Shown here: positions 1,035 to 34,262 of the stretch, piece by piece
Numbering within the stretch: the first letter of the stretch is position 1
Layout of the letters: every line of letters begins with the position of its first letter
Assembly: GCA_018711385.1 (NCBI GenBank)
Contig: DVIK01000084.1
Span: 1-40,330, forward strand
Origin: Candidatus Coproplasma avistercoris
GTDB lineage: Bacteria; Bacillota; Clostridia; Christensenellales; Borkfalkiaceae
DNA length: 40,330 nucleotides
Reading direction: 5' to 3'
Notes under the pieces: model-generated
Seen by the model: only the letters and a program-made list of their open reading frames with translations
Told to the model about the DNA's origin: nothing
Databases searched by the model: none
Made by a program: the position numbers and the translations under genes

Positions 1035-1041
1035 AAAGTAT

Positions 1042-1065
1042 CCCTGCGGCGCAAAAGCCGCAGGG
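1042..1065. terminator. Hairpin between convergent genes (likely bidirectional terminator)
   Basis: CCCTGCGGC-GCAAAA-GCCGCAGGG, between the convergent mrp and TIGR03915 genes. Confidence 0.65.
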
Positions 1066-1071
1066 AAATCT

Positions 1072-1803
1072 TTATGCATCGCCCTTCTTTTCGGGCAGAA
1101 ATTTCCAGTACCGCACGGGCATGTAGCCCTTCATCTGTCTTTCGTGCGGGCGCTCTTTTATATTCACGCCAGAGTAGTACTTTCTCCACAGATTTTCGAA
1201 CGCCTGCTCATATTCCGAAAGATAGACCTCGGCTTCGCCGACTTCCGCCATGAACCACTCGTTCCCGTCGCACATTGCGGCCTTTTTGCGCCTGATGTCG
1301 TGTATCACGAACGGCTGCGCGCCCAGCCGCGCCTTAAAGTGCGGCGCTATCAGGTCTGTTATGTCGTTGTCGGGCGAATAGGGCGCATACAGCGCGCCGC
1401 TTGCCGTCTCCATGAACCGCAAAAATCCCTTCATGTTGTGCAGTTCGCCCGTGACCCGCCCGATTATTTCGTTCATCTCTATCACGGCGGGCAGCGACAG
1501 CATCTTCCGTACGGGCCGCCCCTTCTGCACGAGCAGTCTTACGTATTCGAATGCTGCCTGTTCTTTCAGTCCTTCGTTGCTGCGCAGCGCAAGGTCTATG
1601 TCGCCGGCGGCGTATTTGTCTATGCCGTCTATCCTCTTTCTCACCCGTGCCGCCTTGGCGTCGTCCGCCGTCACGTCGGTCACCTCGCTGTCCAGCCCCA
1701 GCTGCATGTCGCGCGAAGTTATCATGCTGTCTTTATATCTGTAAGCGTCGAACACCGCGGTGTAAAAGCCTGTCGCGGTCCCGTCGGTCATAAATATCTT
1801 CAT
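1072..1803 (-). CDS. TIGR03915-type probable DNA metabolism protein, partner of the TIGR03916 radical SAM protein
   Basis: 243 aa; motifs ...FMTDGTATGFYTAVFDAY..., MxxRxTxELHNMKGFLRFME, YAPYSPDNDITDLIAPHFKARL, FVIHDIRRKKAAMCDG resemble the SAM-linked conserved family. Starts by ATGA overlap with the upstream radical SAM gene. No fused UDG domain. Confidence 0.8.
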   Translation of the reverse strand: MKIFMTDGTATGFYTAVFDAYRYKDSMITSRDMQLGLDSEVTDVTADDAKAARVRKRIDGIDKYAAGDIDLALRSNEGLKEQAAFEYVRLLVQKGRPVRKMLSLPAVIEMNEIIGRVTGELHNMKGFLRFMETASGALYAPYSPDNDITDLIAPHFKARLGAQPFVIHDIRRKKAAMCDGNEWFMAEVGEAEVYLSEYEQAFENLWRKYYSGVNIKERPHERQMKGYMPVRYWKFLPEKKGDA

Positions 1804-3062
1804 AGTTGCCCCGTAAGGGCGCCGATGGCGTCGGAGGGGGTGGAGAACATCGAAAGCTGCTCAGCGCTCCCGCCCGGGCGGCTTCTCTCGTCGATCATCA
1901 GCGCCGTGCGCACTGCCTCGCCCTCCGCGCCGTAAAATTTGCCCTTACAAGTTATAAAGTGCCTCGCCCGCTTCAGAACTATGCGCATTTTTGCAAGATT
2001 ATCGAAATCGAGCTTTGCAAACCGCCTCGCTTCGGTTATTTTGTATGCGCTCTTCGCTCCTATCCCGGGCACGCGCAGCAGCATCTCCAGCGGCGCGGTG
2101 TTTATCTCTACGGGAAAAAGATGCATATTTTTAAGCGCCCACGCACACTTCGGGTCGTAATCCTCGCTCAGGTTTTCGCCCTCTCCGCAAAGTTCGTTCA
2201 CGTCAAACCCGTAAAAGCGAAGCAGCCAGTCCGCCTGGTAAAGCCTGTGCTCGCGCAGCAGCCCCGTCGGCTTGGCCGGCAGCAACGGGCTTGCCACCAC
2301 CGGTATATACGAAGAGTAGTATACGCGCTTGAGCCCCAGCCTGCGGTAGAGGTATTCTGTCAGCCGCAGTATCTGCCCGTCGCTCTCGGGCGAGGCTCCC
2401 ACTATCATCTGCGTGGTCTGCCCGGCCGGCAGTACCATGCCCTCTTTCACCTTGTTTTCCCTGTCGCAGGCTATGGCCGACTGCAACCTCTTCATCGGCG
2501 TAAGCAGGCTGTCCCTGTTCTTCTGCGGGGCGAGCAGTCTGAGCGATTTTTCCGATGGCAGCTCTATGTTGTAGCTCATTCTGTCGGCGTAGCGCGCCGC
2601 CTTCATCATCAGCTCCCTGTCCGCCCCGGGTATGCCCTTCAGGTGTATGTACCCGTTGAAGTTGTAAAGTTTGCGCAACCTCACCACCGTTTCGGTGAGC
2701 AGCTCCATCGTTCTGTCGGGCGTGTCGAACACCGCCGAGGAGAGGAACAGGCCCTCGATGTAGTTGCGCTTGTAAAAGTTTATTGTAAGCCTGCACACTT
2801 CGTCGGGCGTTATCCTCGCCCGCTCCGTACCCGAAGAGCGCCTGTTGGGGCAGTACTCGCAGTCGTACAGACATTCGTTGCTCATAAGGATTTTAAGCAG
2901 GGAGATGCATCTTCCGTCGGGAGTAAAGGAGTGGCAAATGCCCCCGACGGAAGCGTTCCCCAACCCGCCCGCGCGGTTCGCCCGTTTTGAACCGGAGGAC
3001 GAGCAGGATACGTCGTATTTAGCGCTTTCCGTCAATATCTGTAGCGTGTGAGCGTCCAACAT
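1800..3062 (-). CDS. Putative DNA modification/repair radical SAM protein (TIGR03916-like) with C-terminal helix-hairpin-helix
   Basis: LDAHTLQILTESAKYDVSCSSSGS start, radical SAM CxxxCxxC (CLYDCEYC), C-terminal LLRVPGIGAKSAYKITEARR HhH. ATG at 3062 is preferred over the ORF-track 3161 start, which would extend through the promoter. Confidence 0.85.
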   Translation of the reverse strand: MLDAHTLQILTESAKYDVSCSSSGSKRANRAGGLGNASVGGICHSFTPDGRCISLLKILMSNECLYDCEYCPNRRSSGTERARITPDEVCRLTINFYKRNYIEGLFLSSAVFDTPDRTMELLTETVVRLRKLYNFNGYIHLKGIPGADRELMMKAARYADRMSYNIELPSEKSLRLLAPQKNRDSLLTPMKRLQSAIACDRENKVKEGMVLPAGQTTQMIVGASPESDGQILRLTEYLYRRLGLKRVYYSSYIPVVASPLLPAKPTGLLREHRLYQADWLLRFYGFDVNELCGEGENLSEDYDPKCAWALKNMHLFPVEINTAPLEMLLRVPGIGAKSAYKITEARRFAKLDFDNLAKMRIVLKRARHFITCKGKFYGAEGEAVRTALMIDERSRPGGSAEQLSMFSTPSDAIGALTGQL

Positions 3063-3114: not shown

Positions 3115-3126
3115 AAACATTTGTTT
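3115..3126. promoter_or_regulatory. Candidate LexA-like operator, copy 1 (AAACATTTGTTT / AAACAAATGTTT)
   Basis: Palindromic AAAC-N4-GTTT located at about +1 to +12 of the predicted radical SAM promoter; core AAC-RNRY-GTTY fits the Gram-positive LexA box. Confidence 0.45.
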
Positions 3127-3132
3127 AACAGG

Positions 3133-3161
3133 ATTATAACACTGCCGCGGTGTTTTGTCAA
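3133..3161 (-). promoter_or_regulatory. Consensus sigma-A promoter of the radical SAM / TIGR03915 pair
   Basis: Minus strand TTGACA (3156-3161) - 17 bp - TATAAT (3133-3138). Confidence 0.82.
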
Positions 3162-3171
3162 ACGTTTGTTT
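3160..3171. promoter_or_regulatory. Candidate LexA-like operator, copy 2 (AAACGTTTGTTT / AAACAAACGTTT)
   Basis: AAAC-N4-GTTT overlapping the -35 box of the radical SAM promoter. Confidence 0.42.
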
Positions 3172-5561: not shown

Positions 5562-5573
5562 AAACAAATGTTT
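5562..5573. promoter_or_regulatory. Candidate LexA-like operator upstream of uvrBA (AAACAAATGTTT)
   Basis: 12-mer identical to copy 1 upstream of the radical SAM gene; about 35 bp upstream of the predicted uvrB -35. Confidence 0.4.
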
Positions 5574-5650: not shown

Positions 5651-7630
5651 ATGGATTTCAGGTTACATTCAAAATTTCAGCCGACAGGCGATCAGCCGCA
5701 GGCTATAAAGTCGCTCACGGAGGGGGTGCTCGACGGCATACGCACCCAAGTGCTCCTCGGCGTCACGGGCAGCGGCAAGACGTTCACCATGGCAAACGTC
5801 ATCGCCAACGTAAACAGGCCGGCGCTCGTCATTGCGCACAACAAAACGCTCGCCGCCCAGTTGTGCAATGAATTCCGCGAATTTTTCCCCGAAAACAGGG
5901 TGGAGTACTTCGTGTCGTACTACGATTACTACCAGCCCGAGAGCTACATACCCTCTACCGATACTTATATCGAAAAGGATATGAGCCTCAACGACGAGAT
6001 AGATAAGCTGCGCAACTCCGCCACAGCCTCGCTCGGCGAACGGCGGGACGTGATAGTGGTTGCCTCGGTGTCGTGCATATACGGCCTGGGCGCGCCCGAA
6101 GAGTATTTCAGGCTGGCGATCTCTCTGCGCCCCGGCATGGAGATGGAGCGAGACGCGCTGCTGCGCAGACTGGTCGAGATTCAGTATTCGCGCAAGGACA
6201 TAGACTTTCAGCGCTCGTCCTTCCGCGTGCGCGGCGACATAGTAGAGATCTTCCCCGCAGGCAACTCCGAAGTTGCGGTGCGCGTGGAGTTTTTCGGCGA
6301 CGAGATAGACAGGATCTGCGAGGTGGACGCGCTCACGGGCACGGTGATATCCGAGCTGAAACACGTCTGCATATTCCCCGCCAGCCACTATGCCGTGGGC
6401 ACCGACAGGCTGGAACACGCGCTCTCGATGATAGAGCGCGACATGAACGACGAGGTGAAGGCCTTCCGCGACGCCGGCAAGCCGCTCGAAGCCGAAAGAT
6501 TGCAGCAGCGCACCACCTTCGATCTCGAGATGATACGCGAGATAGGTTATTGCAGCGGCGTGGAGAATTACAGCAGGTATTTCGACGGCAGAAGCCCCGG
6601 CGAGCCCTCGTTCACCCTGCTCGACTATTTCCCCGCAGGTCAGTTTCTCGTGTTCATCGACGAGAGCCACATGACCATACCGCAGATCCGCGCCATGTAC
6701 CGCGGCGACAGGAGCAGGAAAGAGAACCTAGTGAATTACGGCTTCCGCCTGAAATCGGCGTACGATAACCGCCCGCTCACCTTCGAAGAGTTCGACGCCC
6801 GCGTGCCGCAGCTCATCTGCGTCTCTGCCACGCCCGCGCCCTACGAGCTGGAGCAGTCGGGCAACACCGTCGAACAGCTGATACGCCCCACGGGGCTTCT
6901 GGACCCGACGGTGGAGGTGCGGCCCACCAAGGGGCAGATAGACGACCTGCTCGGAGAGGTGAACAAGGTCGTTGCGGAGGGCGGCAGGGTGCTCGTCACC
7001 ACGCTCACCAAGCGCATGGCTGAAAGCCTTACCGACTACCTCAAAGAACATTCCCTCAAAGTGCGGTATATGCACAGCGACATAGACGCGCTCGAGCGAA
7101 TCGACATAATCAACGGCCTGCGCAGCGGCGAATTCGACGTGCTCTGCGGCATAAACCTTTTAAGGGAGGGGCTCGACCTTCCCGAGGTTAAGCTCGTCGC
7201 CATTCTCGACGCCGATAAAGAGGGCTTTTTGCGCAGCGAAACGGCGTTCATACAGACGATAGGCCGCGCGGCGCGCAACGCCGAGGGCAGGGTGATAATG
7301 TACGCCGACAGCGTAACGGGCAGCATGCGCAGGGCGATAGACGAGACCGAGCGCCGCCGCAGGATACAGGACGAATACAACAGGGCGCACGGAATAACGC
7401 CCCGGACGATAATAAAGGAAGTAAAGAGCACTATAGGCATCACGGGCAAAAAGAAGCCCGGAGAGGACATAAAGGCTGCCGACATCCCCGCGGAGATCGA
7501 AAAACTTAAGGCGCTCATGGCGGTGGCCTCCGCGCAGCTCGACTTCGAGCGGGCGATAGAGATACGCGACACGATCAACGCATTGAAGAAACGCATGCGC
7601 ACGGCCGGAAGGGACGTCCCCAAAAAGTAA
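5651..7630 (+). CDS. uvrB: Excinuclease ABC subunit B
   Basis: [79 protein letters not shown]-terminal UvrC-binding motif. Confidence 0.98.
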
Positions 7631-7634
7631 AGGT

Positions 7635-10454
7635 ATGAAAGAAGAAATTTTTGTTAAAGGCGCAAAGGAAAATAACTTAAAGAATATAGACGTTCACATA
7701 CCCCGCAACACGCTCACGGTGTTCACGGGGCTTTCCGGCAGCGGAAAATCCACGCTCGCCTTCGACACCATCTTCGCCGAAGGGCAGCGCAGGTATATCG
7801 AAAGCCTTTCGTCTTACGCCCGACAGTTCCTCGGCCAGATGGAAAAGCCCGACGTGGAGCTCATCGAGGGACTTTCACCCGCGATCTCCATCGACCAGAA
7901 GACTACGTCGCACAACCCGCGTTCAACCGTGGGCACGGTGACGGAGATCTATGACTATTTCAGGCTGCTGTTCGCGCGCGTCGGCATACCTCACTGCCCC
8001 AAGTGCGGCAGGGAGATACGCAAGCAGTCCGTCGACGAGATCGCAGACCGCGTGATGTCGCTGCCCGAAAAGACGAAGATAATGGTGGAGGCGCCCATAG
8101 CGCGCGGCAAAAAGGGGGAATTTGTAAAGGAGCTCGCCTCGCTGAAAAAGAGCGGTTACGGCAGGGTGAAGATAGACGGCGCCGTCTACGATCTGCAGGA
8201 TGAGATCCGCCTCGAAAAGAACATCCGCCATACCATATCGGTCGTGGTGGACAGGCTGGTTATAAAGGAGGGCATATTGAAGCGCCTCACCGACAGCCTG
8301 GAAAACGCGCTGAAACTTGGCAACGGGCTGGTCATCATCGACAGCGGCGATAAGGAGGAACTGTATTCTTCCAACTACGCCTGCCCCGACTGCGGCATAT
8401 CCATAGAGGAGATAGAGCCGAGGCTGTTCTCCTTCAACACCCCGTGGGGCGCCTGCCCCGAATGTTCGGGCCTGGGCTTCAGACAGGTAGTCGACCCCGA
8501 CCTCATCTGTCCGGACAAGAACAAGACCCTGCGCGAGGGGGCGATAAAGATAAGCGGCTGGAACCTCGACAGTTCCACCGTCACGCAGATGTATATAAAC
8601 TCGCTTGCAAAGCACTATAACTTTTCGCTCGACGTGCCCGTCAAAGACCTGCCCGAGGGCGTGTACGACATGCTCATGTACGGCAACGGCGGCGAGCAGG
8701 TTGAGCTTGCCTACAACGCCTACCGCTTTTCCGGCAGCTACAAGACGGCGTGGGAGGGCTTTGCCAACAACCTGCAGCGCCGCTACAATCAGACCTCGTC
8801 AGACAGCGTAAAGTGGGATATAGAGCGCTACATGCGCGTCACAGACTGCCCCGCGTGCCACGGAAAGCGCCTCAAAAAGGAGGCCCTGGCCGTCACGGTG
8901 GGCGGCAAAAATATCGCCGAGGTGTGCGATATGGCGGTGGATGATTTAGGCTCGTTTACCGACTTTTCCTTCTTTACGCCCACCGAGCACATGATAGCCG
9001 ACAGCATCGTAAAGGAGATAGACAACAGGCTGAGTTTCCTCAAAAACGTCGGCCTCGGCTATCTTACGCTCTCGCGCAGCGCTGCCACCCTCTCCGGCGG
9101 CGAAAGTCAGCGCATAAGGCTTGCCACGCAGATAGGCAGCGCGCTCACGGGGGTGCTCTACATCCTCGACGAGCCGAGCATCGGCCTTCACCAGCGCGAC
9201 AACGAAAAGCTGCTCAACTCCCTCAAAGGCCTGCGCGACCTCGGCAATACGCTGATCGTGGTAGAGCACGACGAAGACACGATGCGCGCCGCCGACTATA
9301 TAGTGGACATAGGCCCCGGGGCGGGCGTGCACGGCGGCGAGGTGGTGGCGTGCGGCACCGTGCAGGACATAATGAGCGAGCCGCTCTCGATAACGGGCGA
9401 CTACCTTTCGGGCAGGCGCAGGATAGAGGTCCCCGCGGTGCGTAAGCAGCCGGACGGAAGATATCTTACCGCGACGGGGTGCAGGCAGAACAACCTGAAG
9501 GGTATAGACGTCAGCATACCCGCGGGGCTGATCACCGTGGTTACGGGCGTCTCGGGCTCGGGCAAGTCCAGCCTCGTGAACGAAATAATCTATCCATACC
9601 TTGCAAACAACCTCAACGGCGCGCGCCAGCCGCAGGGCAAGTTCGACAAAATAGAGGGGATTGAAAATTTCGATAAGGTCATAGCCATCGACCAGCAGCC
9701 CATAGGCCGCACGCCCCGTTCCAATCCTGCGACGTATACGGGCGTATTCACCATGATACGCGAGCTGTTCGCCGCCACTCCCGATGCAAAGGAGCGCGGC
9801 TACAAAAGCGGCAGGTTCTCCTTCAACATTAAGGGCGGCAGGTGCGAACACTGCGAGGGCGGCGGCATCATACAGATCGAGATGCACTTCCTGCCCGATA
9901 TCTACGTCCCCTGCGAAGTGTGCGGCGGCAAGCGCTATAACCGCGAGACGCTGGAAGTAAAGTACAAGGGCAAGTCGATAGCCGACGTGCTCGATATGAC
10001 GGTGGAGGACGCCGCTGAATTTTTCAGGCCGATAAGCTCCATCTACAACAAGCTCTCCACGCTCGTAGACGTGGGGCTGGGCTATATAAAGCTCGGGCAG
10101 AGCGCGACTACGCTCTCCGGCGGCGAGGCGCAGAGGGTAAAGCTAGCCACAGAGCTCTCACGCCGCAGCACCGGCAAGACGTTCTATATTCTGGACGAAC
10201 CCACCACCGGCCTGCATACCTACGACGTGGATAAACTCATTAAAATACTTGCCCGTCTGCGCGAGAGCGGAAATACGGTGCTCGTCATCGAACACAATCT
10301 CGACGTCATAAAGACTGCCGACTGGATAATCGACCTCGGCCCCGAAGGGGGCGACAAGGGCGGCACGGTGATAGCCTGCGGCACTCCCGAACAGATCGCA
10401 GAGCGGCCCGAAAGTTATACCGGTCAGTTCCTCAAAAAGGTGCTTGGCGGCTGA
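7635..10454 (+). CDS. uvrA: Excinuclease ABC subunit A
   Basis: GLSGSGKSTLAFDTIFAEGQRRYIESLSSYARQFL, two ABC domains (LSGGESQRIRLATQIGS, LSGGEAQRVKLATELSRR), CxxC zinc motifs. Confidence 0.98.
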   Translation: MKEEIFVKGAKENNLKNIDVHIPRNTLTVFTGLSGSGKSTLAFDTIFAEGQRRYIESLSSYARQFLGQMEKPDVELIEGLSPAISIDQKTTSHNPRSTVGTVTEIYDYFRLLFARVGIPHCPKCGREIRKQSVDEIADRVMSLPEKTKIMVEAPIARGKKGEFVKELASLKKSGYGRVKIDGAVYDLQDEIRLEKNIRHTISVVVDRLVIKEGILKRLTDSLENALKLGNGLVIIDSGDKEELYSSNYACPDCGISIEEIEPRLFSFNTPWGACPECSGLGFRQVVDPDLICPDKNKTLREGAIKISGWNLDSSTVTQMYINSLAKHYNFSLDVPVKDLPEGVYDMLMYGNGGEQVELAYNAYRFSGSYKTAWEGFANNLQRRYNQTSSDSVKWDIERYMRVTDCPACHGKRLKKEALAVTVGGKNIAEVCDMAVDDLGSFTDFSFFTPTEHMIADSIVKEIDNRLSFLKNVGLGYLTLSRSAATLSGGESQRIRLATQIGSALTGVLYILDEPSIGLHQRDNEKLLNSLKGLRDLGNTLIVVEHDEDTMRAADYIVDIGPGAGVHGGEVVACGTVQDIMSEPLSITGDYLSGRRRIEVPAVRKQPDGRYLTATGCRQNNLKGIDVSIPAGLITVVTGVSGSGKSSLVNEIIYPYLANNLNGARQPQGKFDKIEGIENFDKVIAIDQQPIGRTPRSNPATYTGVFTMIRELFAATPDAKERGYKSGRFSFNIKGGRCEHCEGGGIIQIEMHFLPDIYVPCEVCGGKRYNRETLEVKYKGKSIADVLDMTVEDAAEFFRPISSIYNKLSTLVDVGLGYIKLGQSATTLSGGEAQRVKLATELSRRSTGKTFYILDEPTTGLHTYDVDKLIKILARLRESGNTVLVIEHNLDVIKTADWIIDLGPEGGDKGGTVIACGTPEQIAERPESYTGQFLKKVLGG

Positions 10455-23860: not shown

Positions 23861-25678
23861 ATGGATATAGTAAGGGAAAAACTCAAACTGCTCCCGGATA
23901 ACCCGGGCGTGTATATAATGTTGGACAAGTACTCCAACGTCATCTATGTCGGAAAGGCGCGCGTGCTCAAAAACCGCGTGCGCCAGTATTTTCACTCCTC
24001 GCCCAAGCCCGATAAGGTCATGCGCATGGTCGAAAATATCGCCGACTTCAACTATATCATCACCAAGACCGAGCGCGACGCTCTCGCCCTTGAAAATAAC
24101 CTCATAAAAAAGTACAAGCCCAAGTACAACATACTGCTGAAGGACGACAAGACTTACCCGTATATAAAGGTCGACCTGCACGAGGACTACCCCGCTTTCT
24201 ATGTCACCCGCAGGGTGAAGAAGGACGGCGCGCGCTACTACGGCCCCTATATGGGCGGGGTGAACTATAAGGACATCCTCGAAATTTTGCAGCTAACCTT
24301 TCAGGTAAGGCTGTGCCATACCGCAATAGGCGAAAAGCCCAAACGCGAATGTCTCAATTACCACATAGGCAGGTGCCTTGCCCCGTGTGCGCACAAGTGC
24401 ACGCGTGAGGAGTACGCGGCGTGCGTTAAGCGTGCCGTGCACTTCCTCGAAGGCAACTATAAGGACGGCGAAGCCGTGCTAAAAGAGCGTATGATGGCAG
24501 CCGCCGCCGGCGAAAATTTCGAGCTTGCTCTCGACTACCGCAACAAGATGGAGATGCTCTCCAGACTCGAGGCGCGCAGGATAACTTCGCTTTCTAACTT
24601 CCTCGACGCCGACATAATAGCTTACACCACCAACGGGCTGTATTCCGCGGTAAACGTGCTCATCACGCGCAAGGGGGTGATGCAGGGCGGAACAAACTAT
24701 GCACTCGAAGACGCGCACGCCACCGACGCCGAGGCGCTCTCGCAGTTCATCACCCAGTACTATGCCGACAGGCTTCCGCCTTCGGAGATAATAACCGAGG
24801 CCTGCCCCGAGGCCGAGCGCGAACTTTTGGAGAGCTTCTTTAAGGAGAAGTACGACAGGAGCGTAAAGATAACTTTTGCCAAGCAGGGCGTAAAGGCGCA
24901 GCTGCTCTCGATGGCGCAGGAGAACGCGCGCGAATACCTTGAAAAATCGGTCGACCGCATAAGACACAAGGACGACATGACCGTAAACGCCTGCAAGCGG
25001 CTGCAATCGCTGCTCGGGCTCAAGACCTACCCGCGGCGGATGGAGTGCTACGACATCTCCAATATCAGCGGCGTGGACAAGGTCGGTTCCATGGTGGTGT
25101 TCATCGACGGTGAGGCAGACCGCGGCAGCTACCGCAGGTTCAGGATAAAAACGGTGGAGGGCGCCGACGACTTCGCGTCATTGCAGGAGGTGCTCACCCG
25201 CAGGCTTTCAAAGCTCGGCACGGACGAGGAGGAGCGCTTCCCCAAGCCGGATCTTGTGATAATCGACGGCGGCAAGGGTCAGCTTTCGGCGGTAAAGCAG
25301 ATATTCGATCGGATGAACATTCAGGGCATAGAGCTCATCTCTCTCGCCAAGCGCGAAGAGGAGGTGTTCACTGCGGACAGCGACGAGAGCATAGTCATTG
25401 ACCGCCGCGACTATGCACTTAAGATGTTGCAGCGCATAAGGGACGAGGCGCACCGCTTTGCCATAACCTATTTCCGCAATCTTCATTCAAAGCGCAATCT
25501 TGAAAGCGTGCTCTCCGAAATAGAGGGCGTCGGCAAGAAGAAGCGCGTGGCGCTCATGCAGAGGTTTGGCACGATAGACAGGATGATGCATGCAAGCGAA
25601 AGCGAACTTGCAGAGACAGAGGGCATCGGCCCCGTGCTTGCAAAAAATATAAAAGATTATTTCGAAGAAAAGTTATGA
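23861..25678 (+). CDS. uvrC: Excinuclease ABC subunit C
   Basis: LPDNPGVYIMLDKYSNVIYVGKARVLKNRVRQYF (GIY-YIG), RMECYDISNISGVDKVGSMVVF, C-terminal HhH LSEIEGVGKKKRVALMQRFG. Confidence 0.97.
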   Translation: MDIVREKLKLLPDNPGVYIMLDKYSNVIYVGKARVLKNRVRQYFHSSPKPDKVMRMVENIADFNYIITKTERDALALENNLIKKYKPKYNILLKDDKTYPYIKVDLHEDYPAFYVTRRVKKDGARYYGPYMGGVNYKDILEILQLTFQVRLCHTAIGEKPKRECLNYHIGRCLAPCAHKCTREEYAACVKRAVHFLEGNYKDGEAVLKERMMAAAAGENFELALDYRNKMEMLSRLEARRITSLSNFLDADIIAYTTNGLYSAVNVLITRKGVMQGGTNYALEDAHATDAEALSQFITQYYADRLPPSEIITEACPEAERELLESFFKEKYDRSVKITFAKQGVKAQLLSMAQENAREYLEKSVDRIRHKDDMTVNACKRLQSLLGLKTYPRRMECYDISNISGVDKVGSMVVFIDGEADRGSYRRFRIKTVEGADDFASLQEVLTRRLSKLGTDEEERFPKPDLVIIDGGKGQLSAVKQIFDRMNIQGIELISLAKREEEVFTADSDESIVIDRRDYALKMLQRIRDEAHRFAITYFRNLHSKRNLESVLSEIEGVGKKKRVALMQRFGTIDRMMHASESELAETEGIGPVLAKNIKDYFEEKL

Positions 25679-31812: not shown

Positions 31813-33051
31813 ATGGTTTACGTAAAGAAACTCGATAACGGAATAAGGCTTGTCGTCAAGCAGATGGAGGGGCTGATGTCGGTAAGCATGGGCGTGCTCG
31901 TGGGCACCGGCGCCTATGTGGAGAGCGACGCCGAGGACGGCATTTCGCACTTCATAGAACATATGATGTTCAAGGGGACGCAGAAGCGCACCGCGTTTGC
32001 CATATCCGACGAAATGGACAGGATAGGCGCGCAGACAAACGCCTTTACCGGCAAGGACATTACCTGTTACTACGCCAAATCGACCACCGAAAACGCCGCC
32101 GCGGCGTTTGAAATACTCGCCGACCTGTTCTTGAACAGCGCGTTTCCCGAAGAGGAGATGGCGCGTGAAAAGAACGTCATAATCGAGGAGATAAGCATGA
32201 ATGAGGACACGCCCGACGACCTGTGCCTCGATTTGCTCTCCGAGGCGTATTACGGCAGGGAGGGCTACGGCAGGAACATACTTGGCACCCGCGAAAACGT
32301 GCTCGGCTTCACGCGCGCCGACGTCGACAGATACATGAAGGCGCGCTATACTTCCGACAATATCGTCATCTCCATGGCGGGCAACATCTCCGTTCAGCTT
32401 GCCGAAGAGCTTGCGGAAAAATACTTCGGCGGCCTGCCCGCAACGCATGTGGACAAGCGCGTTATAGGCGTAAGCGCCCGCCATCGCTCGCTTGTGAAAC
32501 ATAAGGACATCGAGCAGGTGCACATCGCGCTCGCATGGCCCTCGGTCACGCGCGACGACAGGCTGTACGATGCTGTGCGCATAATGAATTCGGTGCTCGG
32601 CGGCAGCATGAGCTCGCGTCTCTTTCAGGAGGTGCGCGAAAAGCTCGGGCTCGCATACACGGTATATTCCTACAATTCGGCGTATGCCGATACGGGCACG
32701 CTGGTAGTCTATGCCGGCGTGAATGCGAAAAATTACCTCAGATCGGTAGACGCCGTGAAAAAGTGCATCGACGACGTAAAGGGCGGCAAAATAGGCAGGG
32801 AGGAGTTCGAACGCGGCAGGGAACAGCTAAAAGCATCGTCCATCTTTGCGCAGGAGAGCACAAGTTCGCAGATGCTGCTCTACGGCAAGGAGATGTTGTA
32901 CAGCGGCAAGCCTTACAGCTTCGAAGAGCGCATTGCTGCTATAAACGCCGTCACTGCCGACGATCTCGCCGAGGCGATCGAAGGCAGCTTCAACAACGAC
33001 GGCATGGCGGCTTCGCTGGTCGGAAAGCTCGATAAGCCGCTTGTTATTTAG
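31813..33051 (+). CDS. M16 family zinc metallopeptidase (insulinase/YmxG-like)
   Basis: HFIEHMMFKGTQKRTAF (HxxEH), NVIIEEISMNEDTPDD, SSRLFQEVREKLGLAYTVYSYNSAYADTG. Confidence 0.95.
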   Translation: MVYVKKLDNGIRLVVKQMEGLMSVSMGVLVGTGAYVESDAEDGISHFIEHMMFKGTQKRTAFAISDEMDRIGAQTNAFTGKDITCYYAKSTTENAAAAFEILADLFLNSAFPEEEMAREKNVIIEEISMNEDTPDDLCLDLLSEAYYGREGYGRNILGTRENVLGFTRADVDRYMKARYTSDNIVISMAGNISVQLAEELAEKYFGGLPATHVDKRVIGVSARHRSLVKHKDIEQVHIALAWPSVTRDDRLYDAVRIMNSVLGGSMSSRLFQEVREKLGLAYTVYSYNSAYADTGTLVVYAGVNAKNYLRSVDAVKKCIDDVKGGKIGREEFERGREQLKASSIFAQESTSSQMLLYGKEMLYSGKPYSFEERIAAINAVTADDLAEAIEGSFNNDGMAASLVGKLDKPLVI

Positions 33052-33055
33052 TACT

Positions 33056-33541
33056 ATGTCAAACGTAAAACACGGGTTTAAGCCTGTTTTCGACGGCAGG
33101 AGCCGCGTGCTGATACTCGGCAGCTTCCCCTCGGTAAAGAGCAGGCAGGTCGAATTTTATTACGGAAATACCAGAAACAGGTTCTGGAAGACTGTGAGCG
33201 CCTATTTCGGCGAGCGTCCGCCGCAGAGCACGGACGACAAGATAGACTTTTTGCACCGCAGGAACATCGCGCTGTGGGATATCGTTGCCGAGTGCGAGAT
33301 CGAAGGATCGAGCGACGCGAGCATCAAAAATTACAGCGTCGCGCAGCTTAAAGATGTGCTGGAAAACGCGCCGATAGAGCTTATAATCCTGAACGGTTCC
33401 AAGGCCTACGAAATATTTATCAAAAATTATCCGCGCATAGGCATTCCGTATGTCCTGCTGCCGTCCACAAGCCCCGCAAACCCGCGCGACGGCACGGCGG
33501 TATGGCATTCGGCGCTTTCGTGCGTATTCGAGGATGACTGA
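33056..33541 (+). CDS. DNA-deoxyinosine (hypoxanthine) glycosylase, UDG superfamily
   Basis: RVLILGSFPSVKSRQVEFYYGNTRNRFWKTVSAYF...NIALWDIVAECEIEGSSDASIKN...LPSTSPANPRD. ATG at 33056 is preferred over 33041. Confidence 0.85.
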   Translation: MSNVKHGFKPVFDGRSRVLILGSFPSVKSRQVEFYYGNTRNRFWKTVSAYFGERPPQSTDDKIDFLHRRNIALWDIVAECEIEGSSDASIKNYSVAQLKDVLENAPIELIILNGSKAYEIFIKNYPRIGIPYVLLPSTSPANPRDGTAVWHSALSCVFEDD

Positions 33542-33542
33542 C

Positions 33543-34262
33543 ATGGTTACATACGACGGATTGCTTGAGCGGCTCCGCGGGTTTTCGGAAGAGGAGTTTG
33601 CCGCTTTCAACCGCAGGGTGGTAAACGACGAAAAACTTGAAGTCATCGGCGTGCGCATGCCGCAGCTGAGAAAAGTTGCAAAGGAATATTACGGGTACTT
33701 CGGCGAGGTAAGTCTGTTTCCCGATGAGTACTTCGAGGTGGTGTTCGTAAAGCTGTGCCTTGCTTCGCGCCTGAAATACGAAGATTTTATTAAGGTGAGC
33801 GACGGCTGCGTGGCGTTGCTGTCCGACTGGGCGCTGTGCGACTGCTTTGCCCCCGCCTGCGTGGCAAAAAACAGGGAGAGCTATATCCCGTTCATAAAAA
33901 AGTACCTTTCGGAGCACGGCGGCTACCGTGGCGGAGAGTTTGTGCGCAGGTTCGCGCTGACCACTCTTCTGCATTTCTATGTGGAGGAGGACTACCTTCC
34001 GCTGATATTTTCCTGCATCGAAAACTGCGATTCTGCGCCGTATTATGTGGCGATGGGTGCGGCGTGGCTGCTCGCTGAGGTGCTTGTAAAGCACTATGCG
34101 GCCGGTTTTGAGTTCTTAAGTAGTACTATGTGTGACATAAATATTAAATTAAAGGCAATTTCTAAGGCGTGCGACAGTTACAGAATATCTCCCGCGCAGA
34201 AGGCGGAACTTCGGGCGCTGCGGGCCGGGCTGAAAGAAAAATTGCGTGCCGCCAAATTTTGA
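33543..34262 (+). CDS. AlkD-like DNA alkylation repair (HEAT-repeat) protein
   Basis: RMPQLRKVAKEYYG, DNWALCD-like LLSDWALCDCFAP, YYVAMGAAWLLAEVLVKH, KACDSYRISPAQKAELRALR. ATG at 33543 preferred over 33450. Confidence 0.87.
   Translation: MVTYDGLLERLRGFSEEEFAAFNRRVVNDEKLEVIGVRMPQLRKVAKEYYGYFGEVSLFPDEYFEVVFVKLCLASRLKYEDFIKVSDGCVALLSDWALCDCFAPACVAKNRESYIPFIKKYLSEHGGYRGGEFVRRFALTTLLHFYVEEDYLPLIFSCIENCDSAPYYVAMGAAWLLAEVLVKHYAAGFEFLSSTMCDINIKLKAISKACDSYRISPAQKAELRALRAGLKEKLRAAKF

Follow-up and report, generated by a model that had tools for sequence, protein, structure and literature searches.

A radical SAM gene and its partner

The window, a 40,330-nucleotide stretch of Candidatus Coproplasma avistercoris, contains two minus-strand genes that encode a radical SAM protein and a smaller partner (Table 1). 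Translation bore out the coordinates, strand and ATGA overlap that an earlier note on this DNA had assigned to the two genes, and the profile search it proposed placed both products above the curated cut-offs of their families. The radical SAM protein matches TIGR03916 in NCBIfam over model positions 4-401 of 415 (E 3e-172), and the 243-aa protein, previously described as TIGR03915-like, matches TIGR03915 as well as the Pfam family DUF4130 (143 bits). Across the pair, the Pfam domains are Radical_SAM, HHH_3 and DUF4130. The radical SAM part of the TIGR03916/TIGR03915 pair corresponds to COG4277. Both families are already named yet biochemically unstudied: no biochemistry or mutant phenotype for either protein was found in the literature searched, and neither has a full-length relative by sequence among solved structures.

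The radical SAM gene starts at the ATG at 3062, near which the family alignments begin; a longer TTG reading frame from 3161, which would cross the promoter, was rejected. An mrp-like gene (138-1034) converges with the operon, and a terminator-like stem-loop lies between them. The transcription unit probably consists of just the two genes, because a promoter (3161-3133) and a bidirectional terminator (1066-1041) frame it. This terminator, the promoter with its operators (3115-3171) and the cysteines C20, C43 and C52 had not featured in the earlier note.

Table 1. Features of the radical SAM-DUF4130 operon, in order of transcription
Feature	Position	Strand	Evidence
AAACAAACGTTT, a further LexA-type operator that overlaps the -35 element	3160..3171	-	genome-wide site search
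Promoter TTGACA-N17-TATAAT, with TG ahead of the -10 element	3133..3161	-	12/12 hexamer matches
LexA-type operator AAACAAATGTTT in the transcription start region, 6 bp past the -10 element	3115..3126	-	genome-wide site search
Radical SAM gene (TIGR03916)	1800..3062	-	573.3 bits, cut-off 343.5
N-terminal region containing C20, C43 and C52, additional cysteines that are nearly invariant	2907..3005	-	111, 110 and 111 of 112 sequences
Radical SAM CX3CX2C motif (C64, C68, C71)	2850..2873	-	invariant, 112/112 sequences
Helix-hairpin-helix motif, residues 318-348	2019..2111	-	HHH_3 in 58/60 relatives
ATGA overlap, 4 bp (radical SAM stop, DUF4130 start)	1800..1803	-	translations
DUF4130/TIGR03915 partner gene, 243 aa	1072..1803	-	TIGR03915 189.5 bits, cut-off 112.25; DUF4130 E 8e-42
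Intrinsic-terminator-like stem-loop closing the operon	1041..1066	both	10-bp stem with 8 GC pairs, T-rich tails

Conservation and structure of the pair

Among the 300 genomes of the phylum analysed, 67 encode a TIGR03916 protein above the cut-off, and a TIGR03915 match is present in all 67 of these compared with one of the 233 others. The two genes lie side by side in 63 of the 67 carriers, the four unlinked cases all belonging to one family, and in 78 of 80 named loci the DUF4130 gene is downstream on the same strand, mostly within 400 bp. Of 24 genus relatives, 23 have the radical SAM gene; elsewhere in the order it was found in only 3 of 16 genomes sampled. The pair is therefore a trait of the genus that occurs patchily beyond it. 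With the gene order and coupling of those 63 carriers, the window pair differs from the family in nothing material, being UdgX-free and having a lineage-specific AAAC-type LexA box, and it is a typical member of a known but uncharacterised system, apparently in an ordinary and widespread form.

Clustering of the neighbours at about 100 loci revealed no general third partner. At locus L132 (14451-16874) and at seven similar Lachnospiraceae-type loci, the pair is followed on the same strand by a DinG/XPD-like helicase that matches PD-(D/E)XK weakly. Assignment to a defence system was rejected for lack of a PADLOC match, as was a phage origin, with no PHROGs match and only 2 matches in viral contigs. 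One record named “Acinetobacter phage MD-2021a” (L155, CAKLQH020000003.1) matches an A. baumannii plasmid (L152) in the order of its glyS, glyQ and pair genes, and looks bacterial rather than phage.

In the radical SAM protein, the CxxxCxxC motif reported earlier corresponds to C64/C68/C71, and the C-terminal helix-hairpin-helix also holds, although the window protein itself scores 26.1 bits for HHH_3, just below the Pfam cut-off of 27. The AlphaFold model (pLDDT 88) has a radical SAM barrel, for which the best Foldseek matches are HydE (E 5e-10), BioB and LipA, with ThiH also among the nearest solved folds. The three N-terminal cysteines may, speculatively, bind a second Fe-S cluster; the C20-C43 stretch is modelled with low confidence, which is how a loop missing its cluster would look but does not count as evidence of a cluster. 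One relative (L041:2274-3419) is a natural variant without C43, and a distant outlier (L162) lacks C20, C43 and C52 altogether; no DUF4130 gene was detected beside the latter within the stretch read.

The AlphaFold model of the DUF4130 protein has a pLDDT of 95. In UdgX-fused and divergent forms alike, the protein retains R129, R159 (one exception), R218 and E238, together with P229 and W233 (one exception); at locus L122 (9427-10728), where a repetitive charged insertion interrupts the protein ahead of the conserved C-terminal segment, the last of these positions are unreadable. The sequence alignment has no family-wide catalytic residue pattern, and the metal ligands and acidic motifs of DHH proteins are absent from the residues conserved throughout the family. 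Because the conserved set comprises these six residues, a binding or positioning subunit would suit DUF4130 better than a classical hydrolase. EXOG was discarded as a relative, since its weak sequence match in the PDB (E 0.17) vanished with the family profile and was taken as chance.

LexA-type operators

A search of the genome for the AAACAAAYGTTT-type 12-mer returned five sites: two at the pair, and one each upstream of lexA, uvrB and a small gene. The reversed-pattern control gave three sites, so that the count alone barely exceeds this control and the argument for SOS control rests on where the sites are located and on their conservation. A LexA-type operator is common to the pair, lexA and uvrB in this one genome, and the pair appears from its predicted operators to be under the same DNA-damage (SOS) switch as these two genes. 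In the genus, a LexA-type box is present in all 23 readable promoters (shuffles: mean 1, maximum 5), and in 18 of the 23, with promoter and box alignable, it follows the -10 element by 6-9 bp while the letters around it differ. Further afield, the Gram-positive LexA-type pattern RAAC-N4-GTTY occurs upstream of the radical SAM gene at 74 of 119 distinct loci (dinucleotide shuffles: mean 3.2, maximum 9), and the strict form GAAC-N4-GTTC at 26 of the 119 against 0.4 in shuffles. The window has no perfect GAAC-N4-GTTC box, near-matches being at chance level, and upstream of recA the genome showed no AAAC-N4-GTTT box.

The site at uvrB is a AAACAAATGTTT box at 5562-5573, preceding uvrB (5651-7630) and then uvrA (7635-10454); the window contains uvrC as well (23861-25678). 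The fifth box (G000:C60:24293-24304; loci L139 and L143) stands before an ORF of about 121 aa with no Pfam match, a candidate SOS gene.

Control by LexA has already been predicted for CAC3343-CAC3344 of Clostridium acetobutylicum (PMC3828012), and a study of Bacteroidetes has placed COG1573-COG4277 under SOS control and proposed a UDG-based system (PMC8565304), so the SOS link of the pair is extended here and not discovered. Like the window pair, the clostridial genes, predicted to be LexA-controlled, comprise a radical SAM ‘DNA modification/repair’ gene and a gene for an unknown protein, but in another species and with another LexA box; the identity of CAC3344 as a DUF4130 protein is inferred from its description.

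Proposed radical DNA repair and alternative functions

We propose, with a probability of about 0.55, that the pair is an SOS-induced, UDG-independent two-subunit enzyme that applies radical chemistry to damaged DNA. On strong sequence evidence, LexA would be bound to the promoter at one or two AAACAAAYGTTT operators until DNA damage released it, whereupon the pair would be co-induced with lexA and uvrB. From knowledge of its family, the TIGR03916 protein would carry a [4Fe-4S] cluster at C64/C68/C71 and generate a 5'-deoxyadenosyl radical from S-adenosylmethionine. We infer that DNA is the substrate: damaged DNA may be held by the C-terminal helix-hairpin-helix together with the obligate DUF4130 protein through its near-universal Arg129, Arg159, Arg218 and Glu238, while the radical would take a hydrogen atom from the lesion, leading to direct reversal or opening with no glycosylase step. 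More speculatively, C20, C43 and C52 could serve a second Fe-S cluster or a radical or sulfur relay. The DNA repair role suggested in the earlier note gains strength from the LexA-type operators common to lexA and uvrB, and the pair has the look of a true inducible system for DNA repair; SOS control is no proof of repair, since mutagenesis, checkpoint and phage genes can be under it too.

The alternative with the most in its favour, though unlikely, is excision of uracil or another deaminated base, in which a UDG-superfamily enzyme acting in trans (here UNG-like or deoxyinosine glycosylase) would cooperate with the pair, and the pair might, for instance, process or release the abasic site. The earlier note's reading and the published ‘UDG-based base excision repair’ (PMC8565304) come near to this. 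Aravind and colleagues had connected DUF4130 with UDGs and with radical SAM proteins resembling SplB (PMC3765255). Two PF03167 proteins are present in the genome, but UDGs are near-universal and their presence says little. In favour of this alternative, the radical SAM gene of alpha- and betaproteobacteria is followed by a DUF4130-UdgX fusion. Such operons, for example those of Phaeobacter, Caballeronia and Azospirillum, have the same radical SAM family (547 bits for the L153 protein) and the DUF4130 domain, and differ from the window pair in the C-terminally fused UdgX (TIGR03914) and in the replacement of DUF4130 D169 and mostly H155 too. On an Acinetobacter plasmid DUF4130 stands alone, and the partners of seven Bacteroidota radical SAM genes (L083, L095, L102, L104, L110, L112 and L125) are DUF4130 proteins with no UDG domain. 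In a tree of 112 sequences all seven UdgX fusions fall into a single eight-member clade beside Bacteroidota (SH-aLRT 100), the partner of the eighth member being lost at the end of its record; in this unrooted tree the fusion marks one nested proteobacterial clade and is likely derived.

In comparison, UdgX above the cut-off was found in none of the 300 phylum genomes and in only one of 50 other genomes carrying the radical SAM gene, nor did the genome of the window, which is 85% complete, yield a TIGR03914 match. The absence of a fused UDG domain noted earlier is confirmed, yet its framing as an unusual variant is not supported: with 67 of the 300 genomes carrying the pair and none UdgX above the cut-off, a pair free of UDG is what is usual for this phylum. 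The deoxyinosine glycosylase gene some 30 kb away is real (33041-33541; TIGR04274, 122.6 bits against a cut-off of 80), but it has no LexA-type box and no regulatory or neighbourhood link to the pair; its ORF overlaps a PF08713 DNA alkylation repair-like ORF, together an apparent two-gene base-repair unit (33041-34262). A deaminated base as substrate, as previously suggested, finds no support here and is rather weakened by the UdgX-free majority. The ‘uracil-DNA glycosylase’ of the Bacteroidetes SOS operon may itself be a DUF4130 protein filed under COG1573, and its ‘UDG-based base excision repair’ label may have originated in the fused proteobacterial members.

Repair of bulky, cross-link or DNA-protein adducts, in which the radical SAM protein would unhook the adduct and DUF4130 would be a degenerate, nuclease-like subunit of DHH type, is quite improbable. 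The operator common to the pair and uvrB would fit such a role, as would the DinG/XPD-like helicase with its PD-(D/E)XK trace at the eight Lachnospiraceae-type loci, and the top Foldseek matches of the pLDDT-95 DUF4130 model are DHH phosphoesterases (8a8k, E 3.6e-4; CDC45, PggH, PF0399 and RecJ). However, these matches superpose poorly (TM-scores 0.30-0.37, rmsd about 9), profile-profile comparison by hhalign with 20 NrnA-type and 30 RecJ sequences gave a probability below 1%, and the DHH metal ligands are missing, family-wide conservation being limited to three Arg and one Glu. Kinship of DUF4130 with DHH proteins, RecJ or CDC45 is accordingly no more than a Foldseek lead, to which the profile comparison lends no support.

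We consider it very unlikely that the pair modifies DNA bases instead of repairing them, for instance to mark self against non-self or as a protective hypermodification. Modification of nucleic acids is known from radical SAM enzymes, and the NCBI name leaves ‘modification/repair’ open, but the predicted SOS control argues otherwise, as do the lack of PADLOC or PHROGs matches, the rarity of the pair in viral contigs and a two-gene unit that in general has no nuclease or methyltransferase gene beside it. A radical SAM enzyme directed at RNA, a cofactor or a protein, and incidentally damage-inducible, is hardly credible given the SOS operators in many lineages, the UdgX fusion and a helix-hairpin-helix in nearly all members, even though HydE, BioB, LipA and ThiH are the nearest solved folds and such motifs are not confined to DNA-binding proteins.

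For the SOS-induced radical enzyme that we favour, the core would be the radical SAM protein and DUF4130, with UdgX outside it as a later addition in some Proteobacteria that widens or marks the substrate. A bolder and clearly more doubtful version is that the pair represents a new class of direct-reversal repair induced by SOS, its two subunits forming a radical SAM enzyme that holds a second Fe-S cluster at C20/C43/C52, has UdgX as a late proteobacterial accessory and reverts a lesion beyond those of known photolyases, SPL and glycosylases. If the favoured reading is right, many anaerobic bacteria would carry a damage-inducible radical SAM repair enzyme; to our knowledge, direct reversal by radical SAM chemistry is known for one DNA lesion only, the spore photoproduct. 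The enzyme concerned, SplB, is likewise a radical SAM protein acting on DNA damage and is a mechanistic analogue, SOS-regulated in several species (PMC8565304). The window protein has no SplB-family match in NCBIfam at E <= 1 and differs in its helix-hairpin-helix, obligate partner, extra N-terminal cysteines and a fold nearest to HydE, BioB and LipA. These three, the best matches of its barrel, share only 12-20% pairwise identity with it and are without its helix-hairpin-helix and DNA context; LipA too has an N-terminal cysteine set.
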